From assembly GCA_913058495.1 (NCBI GenBank), contig CAJXQC010000033.1, positions 1 to 32,042 of the forward strand: a stretch of 32,042 nucleotides of DNA, read 5' to 3'. Made by a program: the position numbers and the translations under genes. A model generated the notes under the pieces. That model worked only from the letters and a program-made list of their open reading frames with translations, did not search any database and had not been told where the DNA came from. Positions 24,161 to 32,042 of this stretch are shown here, in pieces; within the stretch, counting starts at the first letter, position 1, and each line of letters opens with the position of its first letter. The DNA comes from an uncultured Balneola sp. (GTDB lineage: Bacteria; Bacteroidota; Rhodothermia; Balneolales; Balneolaceae).

Positions 24161-24185
24161 CTTTTACTAAACTAATACGGGATCA

Positions 24186-27100
24186 ATGAAATCAATTCTA
24201 TCTGTCTACCTTGCAGTATTATTCGCAGGAGTATCTTTTGCACAAACCAATCCACAGTGGATTCGCTATCAAACTATTTCACCGGATGGCTCAACCATCG
24301 TCTTTACATACAAAGGTGATTTGTATTCAGTAGCGTCAACCGGGGGAGATGCCACTCAACTTACTTTCCATGAAGCTCATGATTATATGCCGGTTTGGAG
24401 CAAAGATGGAAAATCCATTGCTTTTGCATCTGATCGTTATGGAAATTTTGATATCTATACGATGAGTGCTCAAGGCGGAGCAGCAAAAAGATTGACTTTT
24501 CATTCTAATGATGAAAAGCCATTCACATTTTCGGCGGATGGAAAGAATATTATTTTCGGCGCACTTCGAATGGATACCAAAGAACATCGTCAGTACCCAA
24601 CTGGATCTCAACCTGAGTTGTATTCTGTTCCTGTAATCGGTGGACGTGTTGATCAAATCTTTACCGTTCCTGCTGAATTTGTTCAGATAAATAAAGATGG
24701 TTCTCAAATGGTCTATCACGATAAAAAGGGAGGAGAGAACGAGTGGAGAAAGCATCACACTTCTTCCATCACACGTGATATCTGGACCTACGATACGAAG
24801 AGCAAAGCTCATAAAATGATCACCAGTTTTGAAGGAGAAGATCGTCAGCCGATCTACAGTGAAGATGAAAAGTCGCTGTATTACCTGAGTGAGGAAAGCG
24901 GCAGTTTTAATGTTCATAAGCTTTCATTAGCAAGTCCTTCCCAGAATACGCAGTTGACCAATTTTGATCTGCATCCGGTTCGTTTTCTTAGTATGGGAAA
25001 TGGAATGCTTTCTTTCGGGTATGATGGCGAATTGTATACCATGAAAGAAGGAGAGCAACCAAAGAAAGTGAACGTGAACATCAGAACTCAGGAAAAGAGC
25101 AATTCTGACAAATTCATCACTATCAACGGTGGTGTTCAGGAAATGGCTGTTCATCCCAATGGAAAAGAAATTGCATTCGTAGCCAGAGGAGAAGTATTTG
25201 TGACTTCTATCGATGGTTCGCTTACCAAAAGAATTACAAATACTCCTGAAACTGAGCGTTTTATCACTTTCACTCCGGATGGGAAAAGTTTAGTGTATTC
25301 CAGCGAAAGAAACGGAAAGTGGAGTATTTTCAAATCCGAAAAAGTCAGAGAAGAAGAACCGTTTTTCTTTGCCTCAACACTTTTGAAAGAAGAAGCAGTA
25401 GTTGAAACTAAAGAAGATAATTACCTGCCGGAATATTCCCCTGATGGAAAGAAGCTTGCTTTTATTGCAGGAAGAAGAACACTCAGGATTCAGGATGTGG
25501 AATCAGGAAATACGGTAGACCTGCTTACTCCGGAAGATCTGTTCCATATGCGGGATGGTGACAAATACTTTACCTGGAGTCCGGACAGCAAATGGTTACT
25601 GGTTGATTGGAATAAACTTTTGAACAACAGCGAAGTATTGCTTTTATCAGCAGATGGTAAAGAAAGAATCAACCTGACGGAAAGTGGTTATTACGATTAT
25701 TCTCCGAAATGGGTGAATGAAGGAAAGCAGATGATCTGGTTCAGTAACCGTGATGGATTGAAAAGCTATGCCACTAGCGGAAGTTCTCAATCAGATGTGT
25801 ATGCTATGTTTTTTGATCAGGATGCGTGGGATAAATTCAGCATGAGTAAAGAAGATTATGAGTTGATGCAGGAGATCGAAAAGGCAAATAAGAAAGAAGA
25901 AAAACCCGAAGACAAAAAAGAAGATGAAAAGAAGGACGAGAAAAAAGAGGAGGCAAAATCTCTTGAATTTGATTGGGATGGAATGAAGGACAGAAAAGCT
26001 AAGCTTACTATACATTCCAGTAATCTATCGGATGCTACATTGTCAAAAGATGGTGAGAAATTGTACTACTTATCCCGTTTTGAAGGAAGATACGATCTTT
26101 GGGAAACAGAGCTGAGAACTCGTGATACGAAGAAATTGATCAGTTTGAATACCGGTGGTGGAAGCTTGGTTTGGGATAAAAAAATGGAAAACCTATATCT
26201 GTTAAGCAGTGGTAGAATTTCAAAAGTGGATCTTTCCGGTGGCAGTACAAAAGGAATTTCGATTTCCGGAGAGATGGAATACGATGCCGATAAAGAACGC
26301 CAAAAAATGTTCGAGCATGTGTATATCAGAACTAAGAATATTTTCTATGAGCCAACTTTCCACGGAAACGATTGGGATATGCTGTATAAAGAATATCAGA
26401 AATACTTGCCACATACTTCCAATGGATACGAGTTTGCAGAAGTACTATCCGAAATGCTTGGAGAATTGAATGTTTCTCATGCCGGCGCAGGATATAGTAA
26501 CAATATCGAAAATGGTGATGCAACGGCTTCTCTGGGAATATTCTGGGATTATAATCATAAAGGAGATGGGATCAAGATCACGGAAGTTATAAATGGTGGT
26601 CCACTGGATAAAGAAGCACTAGAGATCGAAGCAGGAATGATCATCCAGAAAATTGACGGAGAAACAGTTTCAGCAAACAGAGATATGGCAAGTTATCTGA
26701 ACAGAAAATCTGATAAATTTACATTGCTTGAAGTCACGGACAGTAAAGGGAAAAATGCTAAACAAGTTACCGTCAAGCCAATTTCTTTAGGAGCAGAAAG
26801 AGGATTACTGTACGATCGATTTGTTAGAATGAATGAAGAAGAAGTTGCTGAAAAGAGTAATGGTCAGTTAGGTTATGTTCATATTCCGGGAATGGGAGAT
26901 GGTCCATATCGCGATATTTACGAAGATATGCTAGGCAAATATTTAGAAGCGAAAGGAATCATTGTGGATACGCGATTCAATGGTGGTGGCGACTTAGTTG
27001 CAGATCTCGCAATGTTCTTTACGGGTGAAGAATTCATCACTTATGCTACAGCTGCAAAAGTTGTTGGGGGAGAGCCGACATCCCGCTGGACAAAACCTAC

Positions 27101-27416
27101 GCTTACCATGTTCAACGAAAGTAATTACTCTGATGGACATTGCTATGCTCAGGGATATACTGATTTGAAGATCGGAATTACATTAGGAATGCCTGTTCCG
27201 GGAACCTGTAGTTTTGCAGGATGGGAAGGTTTGCCAAATGGCGGTTATTGGGGAGTTGTTCCGGTTAGTGCCAAAGACAAAGCAGGTCGCTGGATGGAAA
27301 ATTTGCAAACCGAACCGGATGTAAAAGTTAAGAATATGCCCGGAGTTATAAACTCTGGTCGTGATCAACAATTGGAAAGAGCGATTGAAGAATTAATGAA
27401 AGAAGTGAATGAGTAG
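24186..27416 (+). CDS. Tricorn-type S41 protease with N-terminal propeller and PDZ domain
   Basis: 1076-residue exported protease (signal peptide cleaved near SFA, residue 19), full length for Tricorn homologues. Residues about 25-560 are PD40/TolB-like propeller repeats (PDGSTIVFTYKGDLYS, KDGKSIAFASDRYGNFDIY and so on). A highly charged Lys/Glu/Asp linker follows near 565-595, then a second propeller. The C-terminal third has the core domain with Ser764-His765 (LNVSHAGAGY, matching Tricorn's Ser-His pair), a PDZ (ITEVINGGPLDKEALEIEAGM), and the S41 catalytic region DTRFNGGGDL and ESNYSDGH with the likely nucleophile Ser982. In archaea Tricorn trims proteasome products; the bacterial secreted versions probably degrade periplasmic peptides. 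Flanked by terminators on both sides. Confidence 0.93.
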   Translation: MKSILSVYLAVLFAGVSFAQTNPQWIRYQTISPDGSTIVFTYKGDLYSVASTGGDATQLTFHEAHDYMPVWSKDGKSIAFASDRYGNFDIYTMSAQGGAAKRLTFHSNDEKPFTFSADGKNIIFGALRMDTKEHRQYPTGSQPELYSVPVIGGRVDQIFTVPAEFVQINKDGSQMVYHDKKGGENEWRKHHTSSITRDIWTYDTKSKAHKMITSFEGEDRQPIYSEDEKSLYYLSEESGSFNVHKLSLASPSQNTQLTNFDLHPVRFLSMGNGMLSFGYDGELYTMKEGEQPKKVNVNIRTQEKSNSDKFITINGGVQEMAVHPNGKEIAFVARGEVFVTSIDGSLTKRITNTPETERFITFTPDGKSLVYSSERNGKWSIFKSEKVREEEPFFFASTLLKEEAVVETKEDNYLPEYSPDGKKLAFIAGRRTLRIQDVESGNTVDLLTPEDLFHMRDGDKYFTWSPDSKWLLVDWNKLLNNSEVLLLSADGKERINLTESGYYDYSPKWVNEGKQMIWFSNRDGLKSYATSGSSQSDVYAMFFDQDAWDKFSMSKEDYELMQEIEKANKKEEKPEDKKEDEKKDEKKEEAKSLEFDWDGMKDRKAKLTIHSSNLSDATLSKDGEKLYYLSRFEGRYDLWETELRTRDTKKLISLNTGGGSLVWDKKMENLYLLSSGRISKVDLSGGSTKGISISGEMEYDADKERQKMFEHVYIRTKNIFYEPTFHGNDWDMLYKEYQKYLPHTSNGYEFAEVLSEMLGELNVSHAGAGYSNNIENGDATASLGIFWDYNHKGDGIKITEVINGGPLDKEALEIEAGMIIQKIDGETVSANRDMASYLNRKSDKFTLLEVTDSKGKNAKQVTVKPISLGAERGLLYDRFVRMNEEEVAEKSNGQLGYVHIPGMGDGPYRDIYEDMLGKYLEAKGIIVDTRFNGGGDLVADLAMFFTGEEFITYATAAKVVGGEPTSRWTKPTLTMFNESNYSDGHCYAQGYTDLKIGITLGMPVPGTCSFAGWEGLPNGGYWGVVPVSAKDKAGRWMENLQTEPDVKVKNMPGVINSGRDQQLERAIEELMKEVNE

Positions 27417-27446
27417 GATTTAGCTTCTTATCAAAAAACTGAATGA

Positions 27447-27476
27447 GGAGGCTTTGAATAAAAGTCTCCTTTTTTT
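27447..27476 (+). terminator. Rho-independent terminator of the Tricorn gene
   Basis: GGAGGCTTT (27447-27455) pairs with AAAGTCTCC (27461-27469), with one G-T pair, followed by seven T. It stands 30 bp past the stop codon. Confidence 0.88.
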
Positions 27477-27483
27477 GTACTCA

Positions 27484-27516
27484 CTGTAATTCTTAGTATA
27501 TCTGCTTCGACTAACT
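27484..27516 (+). promoter_or_regulatory. ECF-like promoter of the sigma-factor operon
   Basis: CTGTAATTCT (27484-27493) and TGCTTCGACTAACT (27503-27516) recur almost identically at 29165-29196. TGTAAT and CGACTA, 17 bp apart, resemble ECF -35 and -10 elements. Position 31 bp before the sigma start suggests autoregulation. Confidence 0.6.
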
Positions 27517-27546
27517 TAGAAAAGTATTTTTAATTCAATCATACCA

Positions 27547-28047
27547 TTGCAGAAATCTGTAGTTGAACAAGAATTTGTTAAAAAGGTGACAGAATCCCAG
27601 GGGATTGTGCACAAGGTATGCGGAATATACTGTGACAATGAAGAAGATAAGAAAGATCTTTTTCAGGAAATATTGATTCAACTCTGGAAGTCATATCCAA
27701 GCTTCAGAGGGGATTCAAAATTCTCTTCATGGATGTACAGGGTTGGACTAAATGTGGCGATATCTAATCTGAGGAAGTCAAAAACGAAGAAAGAAGATTC
27801 TACCTTGCCTGATTCATTTGATTCCATTTCTAAAGAAAGTGACGAACAAAGTTTGAGTCTGGAAAAAGGATTACTGCGTGATGCAATTCAACAACTGAAT
27901 AAGATCGAAAAAGGAATCATGATGCTTTATTTGGAAGAAAAACCAAATGAGGAGATTGCAGAGATCATGGGTATAACCCAGAACAATGTTAGAGTAAAGA
28001 TGACTCGAATCAGAAACAAACTGAAAGAAACCCTTAATCCGAGTTGA
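27547..28047 (+). CDS. ECF-type RNA polymerase sigma factor
   Basis: 166-residue sigma-70 family member. Region 2 is visible in CDNEEDKKDLFQEILIQLWKSYPSFRGDSKFSSWMYRVGLNVAIS, and region 4 in QQLNKIEKGIMMLYLEEKPNEEIAEIMGITQNNVRVKMTRIRNKLK. The start is TTG at 27547: there is no ATG until residue 63, which would remove most of region 2. Only one base separates its stop from the next gene. Three downstream membrane proteins are candidates for its anti-sigma or signal input. A putative self-recognised promoter stands directly upstream and is repeated before 29235. Confidence 0.92.
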   Translation: MQKSVVEQEFVKKVTESQGIVHKVCGIYCDNEEDKKDLFQEILIQLWKSYPSFRGDSKFSSWMYRVGLNVAISNLRKSKTKKEDSTLPDSFDSISKESDEQSLSLEKGLLRDAIQQLNKIEKGIMMLYLEEKPNEEIAEIMGITQNNVRVKMTRIRNKLKETLNPS

Positions 28048-28048
28048 T

Positions 28049-28690
28049 ATGGAACTTGAAGAACTGAAAGTTTTATGGAAAGAAGAAACTGAGAAGGAAG
28101 TCTCATCTCATAGAGTAGATGTAGACGAAATAAGAGGGGTGATTAGTCGAAAATCTCAGAGTACAATAGCAGATATAAAAAGAACGCTGAAAATTAAAGT
28201 AGGTGTCGCAGGATTTGCAGGAGTAATGTGTCTTGCTACGGTCATTTTTAATCTGACAGAATCATTAAGCGAGGGTTTGATGAGTTTTATGGATTCTTCT
28301 CAAGTGGCAATAATTTATTCAATATTAGGAGTCTCATTACTTATAATTTCTGTATTTAACTTCTTTAATCATATTCGAATTACTGATTTTGAACGTTCTT
28401 CCTTATCCATCAAAGAAACTATAAATCATGTTATTAAGATCATTAAAGGCGCAATGAATCTCGGAACCTATTCTGATCTTATAGTCAGCCCGTTTGTCTT
28501 CGCCTTTGTCGGCTATGTTTTCTTTTACAGAGAAGATGTGTTTCAATTCGATATCAGAACAATTTATGTGCTTTTAGTCTATATAGCGGGGTTAACGTTC
28601 AGTTACTTCACTAATAAGTACGCCATGCAAAGACGATTTGGGAATGATCTTGATAAACTAAAAACGTATTTAAAGGATCTGGAAAATTGA
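28049..28690 (+). CDS. Four-helix membrane protein, putative anti-sigma partner
   Basis: 213 residues. A charged cytoplasmic N-terminus of about 48 residues (MELEELKVLWKEETEKEV..., with RKSQSTIADIKRTLKIK) precedes four hydrophobic helices near residues 50-68, 84-104, 143-161 and 171-189, and a charged tail. The 'LEELKxLWK' start followed by a Ser/Lys-rich segment is a pattern I associate with uncharacterised membrane proteins found after ECF sigma genes in Bacteroidota. Anti-sigma function is inferred from position only: no ZAS-type His/Cys motif is present. Starts one base after the sigma stop and overlaps the next start. Confidence 0.8.
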   Translation: MELEELKVLWKEETEKEVSSHRVDVDEIRGVISRKSQSTIADIKRTLKIKVGVAGFAGVMCLATVIFNLTESLSEGLMSFMDSSQVAIIYSILGVSLLIISVFNFFNHIRITDFERSSLSIKETINHVIKIIKGAMNLGTYSDLIVSPFVFAFVGYVFFYREDVFQFDIRTIYVLLVYIAGLTFSYFTNKYAMQRRFGNDLDKLKTYLKDLEN

Positions 28691-29154
28691 GCAACGCAGA
28701 ACAGAATTTACTTAGAGAAGAAGTCCGATTAAATGATTTAACTGTTCGGGGAATAACGTGGAATGTTTATTTAATAAATATGGGAATATTCTTTCTCTTA
28801 AAATTATGGTTTCGTCCTTGGATAAGAGAGCAGGAAGGATTGGCGTTGCTCAAAACTATTTCAAATTCCTTACCTAATTTTATAGAAGCATATGTAGGAG
28901 TTTTCTGTATTTCCGGATTATTTCTCTTAGCAAAGATCAAAAACTATTCATGGGCTGGAAACTTGTCTGATAGATGGATCTATGTTATCTCGACAATAGT
29001 AGGGGCGATTTTCGTAATTACTCAGGAAATGAAATTTCACAATCTTGGTGGTAGGAATATCTATGATCCTAATGATGTAGTTGCTTCAGTAAATGGATTG
29101 GTATTCGTTTTTGTGATGCTGAATGTGTACGGTATCGGGCTAAGGAAAAAATAA
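28687..29154 (+). CDS. Small multipass membrane protein, faintly VanZ-like
   Basis: 155 residues with about four membrane helices. The start is TTG at 28687, overlapping the previous stop as TTGA; the next in-frame Met lies inside the first helix, so TTG is favoured. The third-helix exit TQEMKFHNLGGRNIYDPNDVVASVNG has the order Glu, then Arg, then Asp-Pro-Asn-Asp, then Asn-Gly, reminiscent of the VanZ-family motif, but the similarity is weak. Third gene of the sigma operon. Function unknown. Confidence 0.72.
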   Translation: MSNAEQNLLREEVRLNDLTVRGITWNVYLINMGIFFLLKLWFRPWIREQEGLALLKTISNSLPNFIEAYVGVFCISGLFLLAKIKNYSWAGNLSDRWIYVISTIVGAIFVITQEMKFHNLGGRNIYDPNDVVASVNGLVFVFVMLNVYGIGLRKK

Positions 29155-29164
29155 TTTGGCTCTT

Positions 29165-29196
29165 CTGTAATTCTGAAGTTTTTGCTTCGACTAACT
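29165..29196 (+). promoter_or_regulatory. Second copy of the ECF-like promoter motif
   Basis: CTGTAATTCT (29165-29174) and TGCTTCGACTAACT (29183-29196) match the sequence before the sigma gene, with the spacer one base shorter. Located 38 bp before the ATG of the next small gene. Downstream AATxCAATCA is also shared between the two sites. Confidence 0.6.
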
Positions 29197-29234
29197 GACT
29201 AAACACCATAATCCTTAATACAATCAGTTTAGTC

Positions 29235-29456
29235 ATGGAAAAGATGATCAACTATAATTATGTAATTACTGGTGGTTTAGTATTAATAGTCCTGGGATTT
29301 GTAGGATTGAATTCTGACGCAGTAAGTCCGGAATGGGATATTGTGATTAAAATATTTCAATCAGTTGGATATTTTTCTTTTGGAATAGGTGTATTCAGAA
29401 AGAAGAAATTGGAAAAGGAATTAATGAAAATTGAACTACTCCAAAAGAGTTATTGA
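29235..29456 (+). CDS. Small two-helix membrane protein
   Basis: 73 residues: YVITGGLVLIVLGFVGL and a second helix around VGYFSFGIGVF, then a basic tail RKKKLEKELMKIELLQK. ATG at 29235 is used; a second ATG three codons on (29244) is possible. It lies behind the repeated ECF-like promoter and is probably in the regulon of the sigma factor encoded upstream. Not recognised. Confidence 0.62.
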   Translation: MEKMINYNYVITGGLVLIVLGFVGLNSDAVSPEWDIVIKIFQSVGYFSFGIGVFRKKKLEKELMKIELLQKSY

Positions 29457-29487
29457 AAATAGTGCTCTCAAAAGTCAAAGCAGATCT

Positions 29488-29673
29488 ATGAATAACGAAC
29501 TATCAGTTAAGAAAAGACAGAACAGTTTTAACAGATTAAAATGGATCGGTTTCATTTTAATGGCTTCTGGTTCGCTTTCGTTTAGTAATCATACTCTAGT
29601 TGGAGATATGATTGCTGTATTAGGAATTATACTTTTTTTGGGGACTTGTATTTATAGTCGTCTAAAACGATGA
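29488..29673 (+). CDS. Small two-helix membrane protein
   Basis: 61 residues from ATG 29488: a basic start (VKKRQNSFNRLK) and two helices (WIGFILMASGSLSF, DMIAVLGIILFLGTCIYS), ending RLKR. The frame is open back to a TTG at 29431, but that would overlap the previous gene by 26 bp and add a polar stretch, so the ATG is preferred. It shares size and topology with its neighbour, possibly an old duplication. Not recognised. Confidence 0.5.
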   Translation: MNNELSVKKRQNSFNRLKWIGFILMASGSLSFSNHTLVGDMIAVLGIILFLGTCIYSRLKR

Positions 29674-29734
29674 AATAAAAAACTCATCTGATTAAGTATT
29701 AAGGTTAGTTACAGTTCTATAATTACGTCGCCTT

Positions 29735-29762
29735 TGTATTGAAATCGCCGTAACTTTGTCTA
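29735..29762 (+). promoter_or_regulatory. Possible third ECF-like promoter
   Basis: TGTATT (29735-29740) and TGTCTA (29757-29762) spaced 16 bp, 22 bp before the GTG start of the sensor gene. A weaker match to the pair seen at 7.5 and 27.5 kb; it may be chance. Confidence 0.25.
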
Positions 29763-29784
29763 GTAACTCCTAAAACCTAAGTTC

Positions 29785-32000
29785 GTGCGATTTAGCTTCC
29801 CTGCTTTTTTAGCAACTTTTATTTTATTTCTGATACCAAGCTCGCTTTTAAGTCAGTTTTATCCTGCAGAAACGTATTCGACTTCTGACGGGATGCCCAC
29901 CAATTCTGTTTACTCTATCACTCAGGCAGAAAACAGAGTCATGTGGTTTATTACATCAAAAGGCGTGGTAACATACGATGCTAGTGAATGGTTTCTTTTT
30001 CCGGATTCACTAGCTCTTCCATTAACAAAACAATCTTACATTCAAAATGATGACTCAGACAGAATTTGGGTGGCAGGATATAATGAGAGTGGTTTCACAG
30101 TTCAAAATTACAAAGAGAAAGAATGGACAAAAGTAATAACTCCTGACTCATGGCCGAACAACAGAAAAGCATTTTCATTCAGAGCGGCAAAGAAGCAGAT
30201 ATTTCTGGGACTGGAGAATCAGCTTTTTATTTTGAATGAATCCCACTCAGAGTGGAGAGTAAAACAAATTCAGAGCGGTAGTAAAACTGTTACGATCAAT
30301 GACCTTGTTTATTTAGATGATAAGCTCTTTATCACCACAAATCAGGGAGTTTATGAGTTCCATGATGGTGAAATAATTGAAAGTGAGCTCAATAATTTCA
30401 ATTTGCGAAGCAGAAATATTCTCACCATAAATAAATTTCAGGACTCGTTTTATTTTCTGGGCTTGAATTGGATTGGCAAAGTTGAAGATAACAGGTACAG
30501 TCTAGTTTCAGATGAACTGGGTATTTTTTCAGAGTCAGATATTAAAAAATACAGTTTGGAAATTGATGACAGAGGACGAGTTTTTTACAGTAGTTACAGC
30601 AGAGCATCGGTTCTTAATGAAGAAACAGGGCGGTGGATTCCTCTTAAAATTCTGGGAAGACAACAAAACGTATTAAGTAATCAGATCTTTGTAGATCAGG
30701 AAAAGAATTATTGGGTTGGAGATAACAGGGGCTTATTTAAATTCAATTTACTACGATTTAAAAATTTAAACAGTAATACAGGCCTAATTGAGGATGAGGT
30801 AAGTAGTATTTATCAAACACTGGATGGGAAAGTACTGTTGGCAAATCCAAGAGGCATTAATTTCTATGATGAAGGAGAAATAAAATCTATAGATCTGAGA
30901 AACCGATACCCGGATTTTGTAACAAGAGTATTAGATATAGAACAAACTGCTGACGAAAGCATTTATGTAGCTCTTTCGCAAGGTGGTTTAATTAGTATAA
31001 AAAATGGGAGAATAAGAGATTACGATTCAAAAACCCTCAACAATTTAATAACTGCAATTAGTGTACATAATGGTGAGCTTTTAGTATCAAGTTCTAATGC
31101 AGTGTATATTTTTAAAGATCAGAAACTAGAGCTTTTTGGTGAATTTAATGGAATCCGAAATATTGTTAGTCTGGATAATGACAAACTCGCGATACTTTCT
31201 TATCAGGGACTATATATATCAGATGGTATTAACACCAGATTTTATTCAAGCACAAAAAATTCACTAAACAGTACGTTTGATATTGAGTACTGGAATGGAA
31301 ATTATGTGGTTGCTACACAAGCAGGCTTAGGAATATTGAAGAATGAAAAAATTGTAGGCTATGAAGATATTTCCGTTCCTGCAATTCCTTCTTACTCATT
31401 AATGAAAGATTCAGGGAATAACCTGTGGGTTGGTACTAACGATGGTATTTTTAGAGTGAATGAAGGTCAAACTATTCAGTACAATAAAAAAAACGGGTTA
31501 ATCGGTAATGAAATTAATCGTAATGCTTTAATTGAAGATACAGACGGAGATATATGGATCGGAACAGATGCAGGTGTTTCTGTTTTTGATCACAATGAAG
31601 ATATTGAAGCAGATTATATACCAATTATTGAACTAAAAGAACTTAAAACATTAAATGGCACGGATCTTACTGATAAAAGCCAAAAGCACATCAATTATAA
31701 TGAGAATAGCATCGAATTAAAGTTCAGAACTATTTCATTCTTTAATGAAGAAGCAATGAATTTCAGGTATAAACTTGAAGGATTTGATGAAGAATGGAAC
31801 AGCTCTTCAGATATTTCCAATAGTCCGATTCGGTATACAAATCTTAATCCGGGAAATTATACTCTTTTAGTGCAGGGACAAGTTGAAGCCGGACCCTGGA
31901 GTGCTCCTCATCAGGTAGGTTTTGTTGTTGAACATCCATTTTATCAAACACTGTGGTTCATAAGCTTGGTTCTATTGTCTATTACTGTGATCGCATATTC
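29785..32000 (+). CDS. Two-component-regulator-propeller / Y_Y_Y-domain sensor, C-terminally truncated
   Basis: 738 genuine residues of a periplasmic sensor. Start is GTG at 29785 with a signal peptide ending near SLLSQ. Residues about 25-610 are reg_prop-type propeller repeats (DGMPTNSVYSITQ, DSDRIWVAGYN, GNNLWVGTNDGIF, DGDIWIGTDAGVSVF). Next is a Y_Y_Y domain (ENSIELKFRTISFF, FRYKLEGFDEEW, YTNLNPGNYTLLVQG) and the beginning of a membrane helix (TLWFISLVLLSITVIAYS). In this architecture a cytoplasmic output domain (histidine kinase, GGDEF or HTH) normally follows, but the contig ends. The open frame continues to a TAG at 32037, yet its last 12 residues are translated adapter sequence and should be removed. 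Confidence 0.9.
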
Positions 32001-32042
32001 CTGTCTCTTATACACATCTGACGCTGCCGACGAATAGAGAGG
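32001..32042. other. Illumina Nextera adapter plus i5 index (contamination)
   Basis: Bases 32001-32019 are the 19-bp Tn5 mosaic end (CTGTCTCTTATACACATCT) and 32020-32033 the rest of the Nextera read-through adapter. Bases 32034-32041, ATAGAGAG, are the reverse complement of the Nextera i5 index CTCTCTAT, and the final G is the first base of the P5-side sequence. None of this is genomic. Confidence 0.97.

Follow-up and report, generated by a model that had tools for sequence, protein, structure and literature searches.

The last 42 bases of the window, i.e., of the entire 32,042-nucleotide contig analyzed here (contig C33 of an assembly of 47 contigs, 3,404,877 bases and 94 contig ends), are untrimmed Nextera adapter rather than bacterial DNA. 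This reading is held as practically certain because all 42 bases match a printed primer, because the sequence occupies contig ends only, because one index pair is carried throughout the assembly, and because the other half of the interrupted gene, found on contig C4, is itself capped by adapter. The composition of the tail and of the gene that runs into it is given in Table 1.

Table 1. Features at the adapter-bearing end of the window
Feature	Position	Strand	Basis
Authentic 5' portion of a gene for a two-component sensor histidine kinase, cut by the assembly end	29785..32000	+	ORF; Pfam Reg_prop and Y_Y_Y; four same-genus orthologues
Tn5 mosaic end (Nextera), reverse complement	32001..32019	+	Exact match, 19 bases, 0 mismatches
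Artefactual coding tail CLLYTSDAADE plus stop; TAG (32035-32037) lies within the index	32002..32037	+	Codon table
Rest of Nextera Read 1 adapter, reverse complement	32020..32033	+	Exact match to primer letters printed in excerpts of PMC8185305 and PMC10528933
i5 index S502 (CTCTCTAT), reverse complement ATAGAGAG	32034..32041	+	Index letters printed in excerpts of PMC10528933 and PMC7589761
First base of P5 segment (G)	32042..32042	+	Longer tails of the same assembly continue as GTGTAGAT

By exact letter comparison, positions 32001-32033 constitute the complete 33-base Read 1 adapter in reverse complement, and the full tail (42/42 bases), once reverse-complemented, is found letter for letter within the Nextera primer with Illumina index S502, whose letters stand in a printed excerpt of PMC10528933. 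The adapter core is likewise printed in an excerpt of PMC8185305, and the corresponding part of PMC7589761 gives the index letters as CTCTCTAT for S502 and CTCTCTAC for N707. The preliminary description of this DNA, which had attributed the last 42 bases to the Nextera adapter followed by the complement of an i5 index, was therefore exact, and the index can now be named as S502. No second match to the mosaic end is present anywhere in the window with up to three mismatches tolerated.

Extending the search to the whole assembly yielded 21 copies of the 19-base mosaic end, all of them at contig ends (21/94) and all starting within 49 bases of the end; tolerating three mismatches revealed no further copies, and a control search of the assembly with the mosaic-end pattern read backwards returned no matches. 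The mosaic end CTGTCTCTTATACACATCT is followed directly by the rest of the Read 1 or Read 2 adapter, and the standard indexes are uniform across the library: the 13 i5-side tails all carry ATAGAGAG (S502), and the eight i7-side tails carry CTCTCTAC (N707) in seven cases, the eighth stopping after two index letters. A single untrimmed dual-index Nextera library (S502 + N707) accounts for all 21 tails, and an exact search for the mosaic end in seven other genomes of the genus gave no match (0/7). The other 73 of the 94 contig ends have no mosaic end and, thus, adapter is not the sole cause of breaks in this assembly. Open frames of at least 100 codons (not all of which are demonstrated genes) run into the adapter at 7 of the 21 adapter ends, the one in the window included (L002, L009, L010, L013, L014, L017 and L019), and at one further adapter end (L012) a 194-codon frame begins at an ATG within the adapter.

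Two observations concern sequence at or near other contig ends. The end of contig C8 (L005) and the start of contig C17 (L008) have in common a hairpin-forming repeat, TCCCTCCCTAAAGTTAGGGAGGGA, located shortly before the adapter; a search of the window that tolerated up to three mismatches did not find this repeat. The opposite end of the window (positions 1-62) has no adapter and consists of 8.9 perfect tandem copies of GATGTTG, a repeat that may have ended the assembly there.

The frame that enters the adapter, ORF 29785-32037, has 750 codons in the program-made list, of which 738 (29785-31998) are wholly genomic. Codon 739 combines genomic TC with the first C of the adapter, encoding Ser whichever the third base, and residues 740-750 (CLLYTSDAADE) are encoded by the adapter, the stop codon TAG being formed by bases 2-4 of the index. 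The earlier claim that this peptide and its stop codon are artefactual stands. As a description of a peptide shared by contaminated assemblies, however, it has to be narrowed, since only CLLYTSDAAD is independent of the index, which determines both the residue that comes next and the stop; the exact CLLYTSDAADE followed by a stop requires an index such as S502. Within the genuine part, a Pfam scan detected Reg_prop propeller repeats and a Y_Y_Y domain, and a membrane helix is suggested by visual inspection. When the last 45 residues of the ORF were compared with protein families, PHROGs returned weak matches (E 0.031 and 0.16, the former covering residues 8-41 of the 45, with 7 adapter-coded residues among them) and NCBIfam returned one at E 0.048 (14.2 bits vs. 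a cut-off of 90), which we read as putative chance matches over the membrane helix.

Orthologues in four genomes of the genus (62-63% identity, aligned over 735-738 of 738 residues; open frames of 1028, 1059, 1051 and 1049 codons) all continue for 284 residues past the break point. Where the window's protein reads SCLLYTSDAADE, they read SIYR or FIYR and proceed into a kinase domain; this stretch contains AHEINNPLNY as its histidine motif and also an ATPase domain. A Pfam scan of one of these orthologues placed HATPase_c above the cut-off and HisKA below it (20.1 vs. 26.9 bits). The proposed truncation of the sensor gene at position 32000 is borne out by this continuation, and the remainder of the gene was found in the same assembly. 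A search of the assembly with the orthologue tail identified the end of contig C4 as the best match (E 2.4e-74 vs. 1.6e-26 for the next), with 76% identity to one orthologue over query residues 130-280. The C4 fragment (L172:8677-9135) starts directly after an i5-type adapter carrying S502 and encodes 153 C-terminal residues with an HATPase_c domain; a mechanical ORF call at this place takes a GTG of the adapter as the start and produces the artificial N-terminus MYKRQ. This fragment is the remainder of the window's kinase gene, and both halves are capped by adapter.

The two aligned ends are separated by 131 residues in all four orthologues, and two bases of the first codon in the gap are already present in C33, so that approximately 391 nucleotides are missing between the halves, an estimate that rests on orthologues of 62-63% identity, though the four agree on the spacing. 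The phospho-acceptor histidine region of the window's gene, represented by AHEINNPLNY in the four orthologues, falls in this gap. Gene order on either side of the break matches that in 4/4 relatives: the C4 fragment is followed by a gene for a 127-residue response regulator and then by three more ORFs, in the same order in all four, and on the C33 side the long ORF at 24171-27413, a protease as judged by eye, is 96-97% identical in 4/4 relatives where the fetched stretches cover it. With respect to known Reg_prop/Y_Y_Y sensor histidine kinases, the gene shares the propeller repeats and Y_Y_Y domain (in the window) and HATPase_c (in the C4 part and in the scanned orthologue), but differs in the sub-threshold HisKA score of that orthologue and in having the response regulator as a separate, unfused gene.

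Some further features of this neighborhood were observed. Approximately 2.4 kb of small genes (27417-29784) lie between the ORF at 24186-27416 and the kinase gene, including a 166-residue ORF that by eye looks like an ECF sigma factor, followed by small ORFs resembling membrane proteins; in the four relatives, the matches to this ORF and to the kinase are ~170-290 nucleotides apart, and no window ORF of at least 100 residues from this interval has a match in their 12-kb stretches. The identity of the kinase to its relatives (62-64% in the sensor part, 68-78% in the C4 part) is lower than that of the neighboring genes (79-97%), and the C4 part is nearest to one relative (L173), to which its four neighbors are not nearest. 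From these sequence comparisons, the lower identity of the kinase may reflect either fast evolution of the sensor or an exchange of alleles.

Several other origins of the tail were weighed. Chance is ruled out by shuffled controls of the window, which gave a mean of 0.01 matches to the mosaic end, and by the probability that a specified 33-mer occurs exactly in 3.4 Mb, both strands counted (approximately 1e-13, assuming equal base frequencies). A natural end of a Tn5/IS50-type transposon located within the gene would explain why the first 19 bases of the tail resemble a Tn5 end; nevertheless, these bases show three mismatches to the natural outside end and four to the inside end and do not qualify as either, the remaining 23 bases consist of adapter, index and P5 with no transposon sequence, and two adapter types are distributed over 21 contig ends. 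Megablast with the 42-mer, moreover, was negative across 5,426 complete Escherichia coli genomes (20,395 records), and a natural transposon end is considered extremely improbable. We assign the same very low standing to an engineered mosaic-end transposon carried by the strain (e.g., a mutagenesis insertion): such transposons bear the same 19-base mosaic end and would share it with the tail, but would not explain why some contig ends carry an i5 index and others an i7 index, and here no cargo follows the mosaic end, since the contig simply stops. The letters, the index and the contig-end position together rule out both kinds of transposon end.

The remaining alternative, that the protein truly ends here and that CLLYTSDAADE is a real tail, can draw on a frame that is open up to a stop codon. 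It is opposed by the continuation of the orthologues and by the location of the ATPase part on C4 beside a response regulator gene, as in the relatives, which together rule it out, and it is the least credible of all the explanations considered. Untrimmed Nextera adapter is, thus, the reading retained. Under this reading, tagmentation by Tn5 would have generated a fragment shorter than the read, and the second read would have passed through this short insert into the mosaic end, the Read 1 adapter, the i5 index and P5. With the adapter left untrimmed and coverage beside the site probably thin, the assembler may have extended the contig into the adapter and would then have halted once the sequence became common to many ends.

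Adapter carry-over is a routine problem with Nextera libraries, and public assemblies are known to suffer from adapter contamination and are screened for it. An exact scan of other public genomes for the 33-base adapter returned at least 126 sites in at least 120 stretches, the true number being higher, and the sites listed come from many unrelated taxa, in which the 33-mer lies close to contig ends. At 120 of the 126 sites listed it lies no more than 38 bases from the end of the stretch, and at the other six the distance is 69-466 bases, so that the artefact is not strictly terminal in other genomes. Among the listed sites with at least eight following bases, a Nextera i5 index from a list of 18 is present in 94/102 and absent in 8/102, and the other 24 sites are too short for this comparison. 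Frames of at least 100 codons enter the adapter at 21 of the 126 listed sites in each of the three reading frames, as expected if the position of the junction ignores genes. In the window's frame, the 21 listed sites yield CLLYTSDAADE (12), CLLYTSDAADD (8) or a sequence cut at CLLYTSDAAD (1), and a stop follows immediately in one of the 12; the two other frames yield LSLIHI followed by a stop and VSYTHLTLPT (21 listed sites each). On the reverse strand, a frame of at least 100 codons starts with the adapter's MCIRD at 36 of the 126 listed sites. The window's tail shares the mosaic end, adapter and index letters and the contig-end position with read-through contamination of draft assemblies generally and shows no difference of substance from it, except that here both adapter-capped halves of one gene can be paired.

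Such peptides, which had been expected to appear as a false conserved C-terminus in other contaminated assemblies, are carried by annotated phage proteins. Megablast with the 42-mer returned whole or partial matches in 30 of 50,697 phage records and 8 of 72,556 plasmid records. Phage vB_EcoM_WFK provides two examples, a long tail fibre protein (QBQ77263.1) whose CDS closes with LSLIHI and a stop, and the next annotated protein (QBQ77264.1, "hypothetical protein"), which contains CLLYTSDAADD; one protein of phage ev207 ends in VSYTHLTLPTICSV and a stop, one protein of phage ev017 begins with MCIRD, and in the P2-like phage P22H1 CLLYTSDAADD stands in frame inside the terminase gene. The respective place measures 336 bases in P22H1 vs. 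300 in 6/6 other records listed (of 90 matching, the RefSeq copy aside). The recommended database search for the tail took the form of a translated search against phage records with QBQ77264.1 and matched 13 other records (E below 1e-3 in two, 1e-3 in one and above it in 10). Eight of the 13 places were inspected, seven with adapter and one without; the adapter places show the mosaic end with 0-2 mismatches, except in phage TAC1, in which the adapter-coded peptide lies beside an exact adapter copy on the other strand. In total, 12 of the 13 matches are adapter, index and P5 (the seven inspected, four overlapping hits of the 42-mer and one RefSeq twin), which makes an artificial shared terminus a real risk.

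Among the adapter places in phage records, the one in the P2-like terminase gene corresponds to L179:1501-1533 (LR595870.1), with the same hit in the RefSeq copy NC_049386.1. In Paenibacillus phage Pd_22F (MZ092003.1, L180:601-634), a feature annotated as resembling a recombinase family protein overlaps the adapter, one frame of which reads CLLYTSDAADE, and in Pseudomonas phage vB_Pae_BR141d (MK511037.1, L190:101-151) the CDS of a tape-measure protein enters an adapter-like stretch that has the mosaic end with two mismatches.

For the four annotated adapter-bearing phage proteins, no family visibly resting on the adapter was found in PHROGs or NCBIfam. The three small proteins matched no family in either collection up to E = 1, and for the terminase piece PHROGs gave 13 families, most of them terminase, and NCBIfam gave none; across the adapter place, one of the PHROG alignments covers 79 protein residues vs. 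67 profile positions, the kind of excess that an inserted stretch would produce. Public protein sets may contain CLLYTSDAAD, LSLIHI, VSYTHLTLPT, MCIRD and MYKRQ so often that unrelated proteins falsely look homologous; this is a tentative proposal, which we lean slightly against. Within the PMC literature searched, no paper with the adapter peptide words was found, and no title on adapter-coded peptides appeared among the matches listed there for adapter contamination of assemblies.

Overall, the tail is no real biological feature and holds no biological novelty; it is an ordinary but instructive assembly error, the significance of which lies in data hygiene. One kinase gene now appears as two pieces, the sensor ending in a false tail and the ATPase fragment opening with a false start, six further contig ends of the same assembly have long frames that enter the adapter and one has a frame that starts there, and the same fake peptides are present in annotated public phage proteins, a terminase included.
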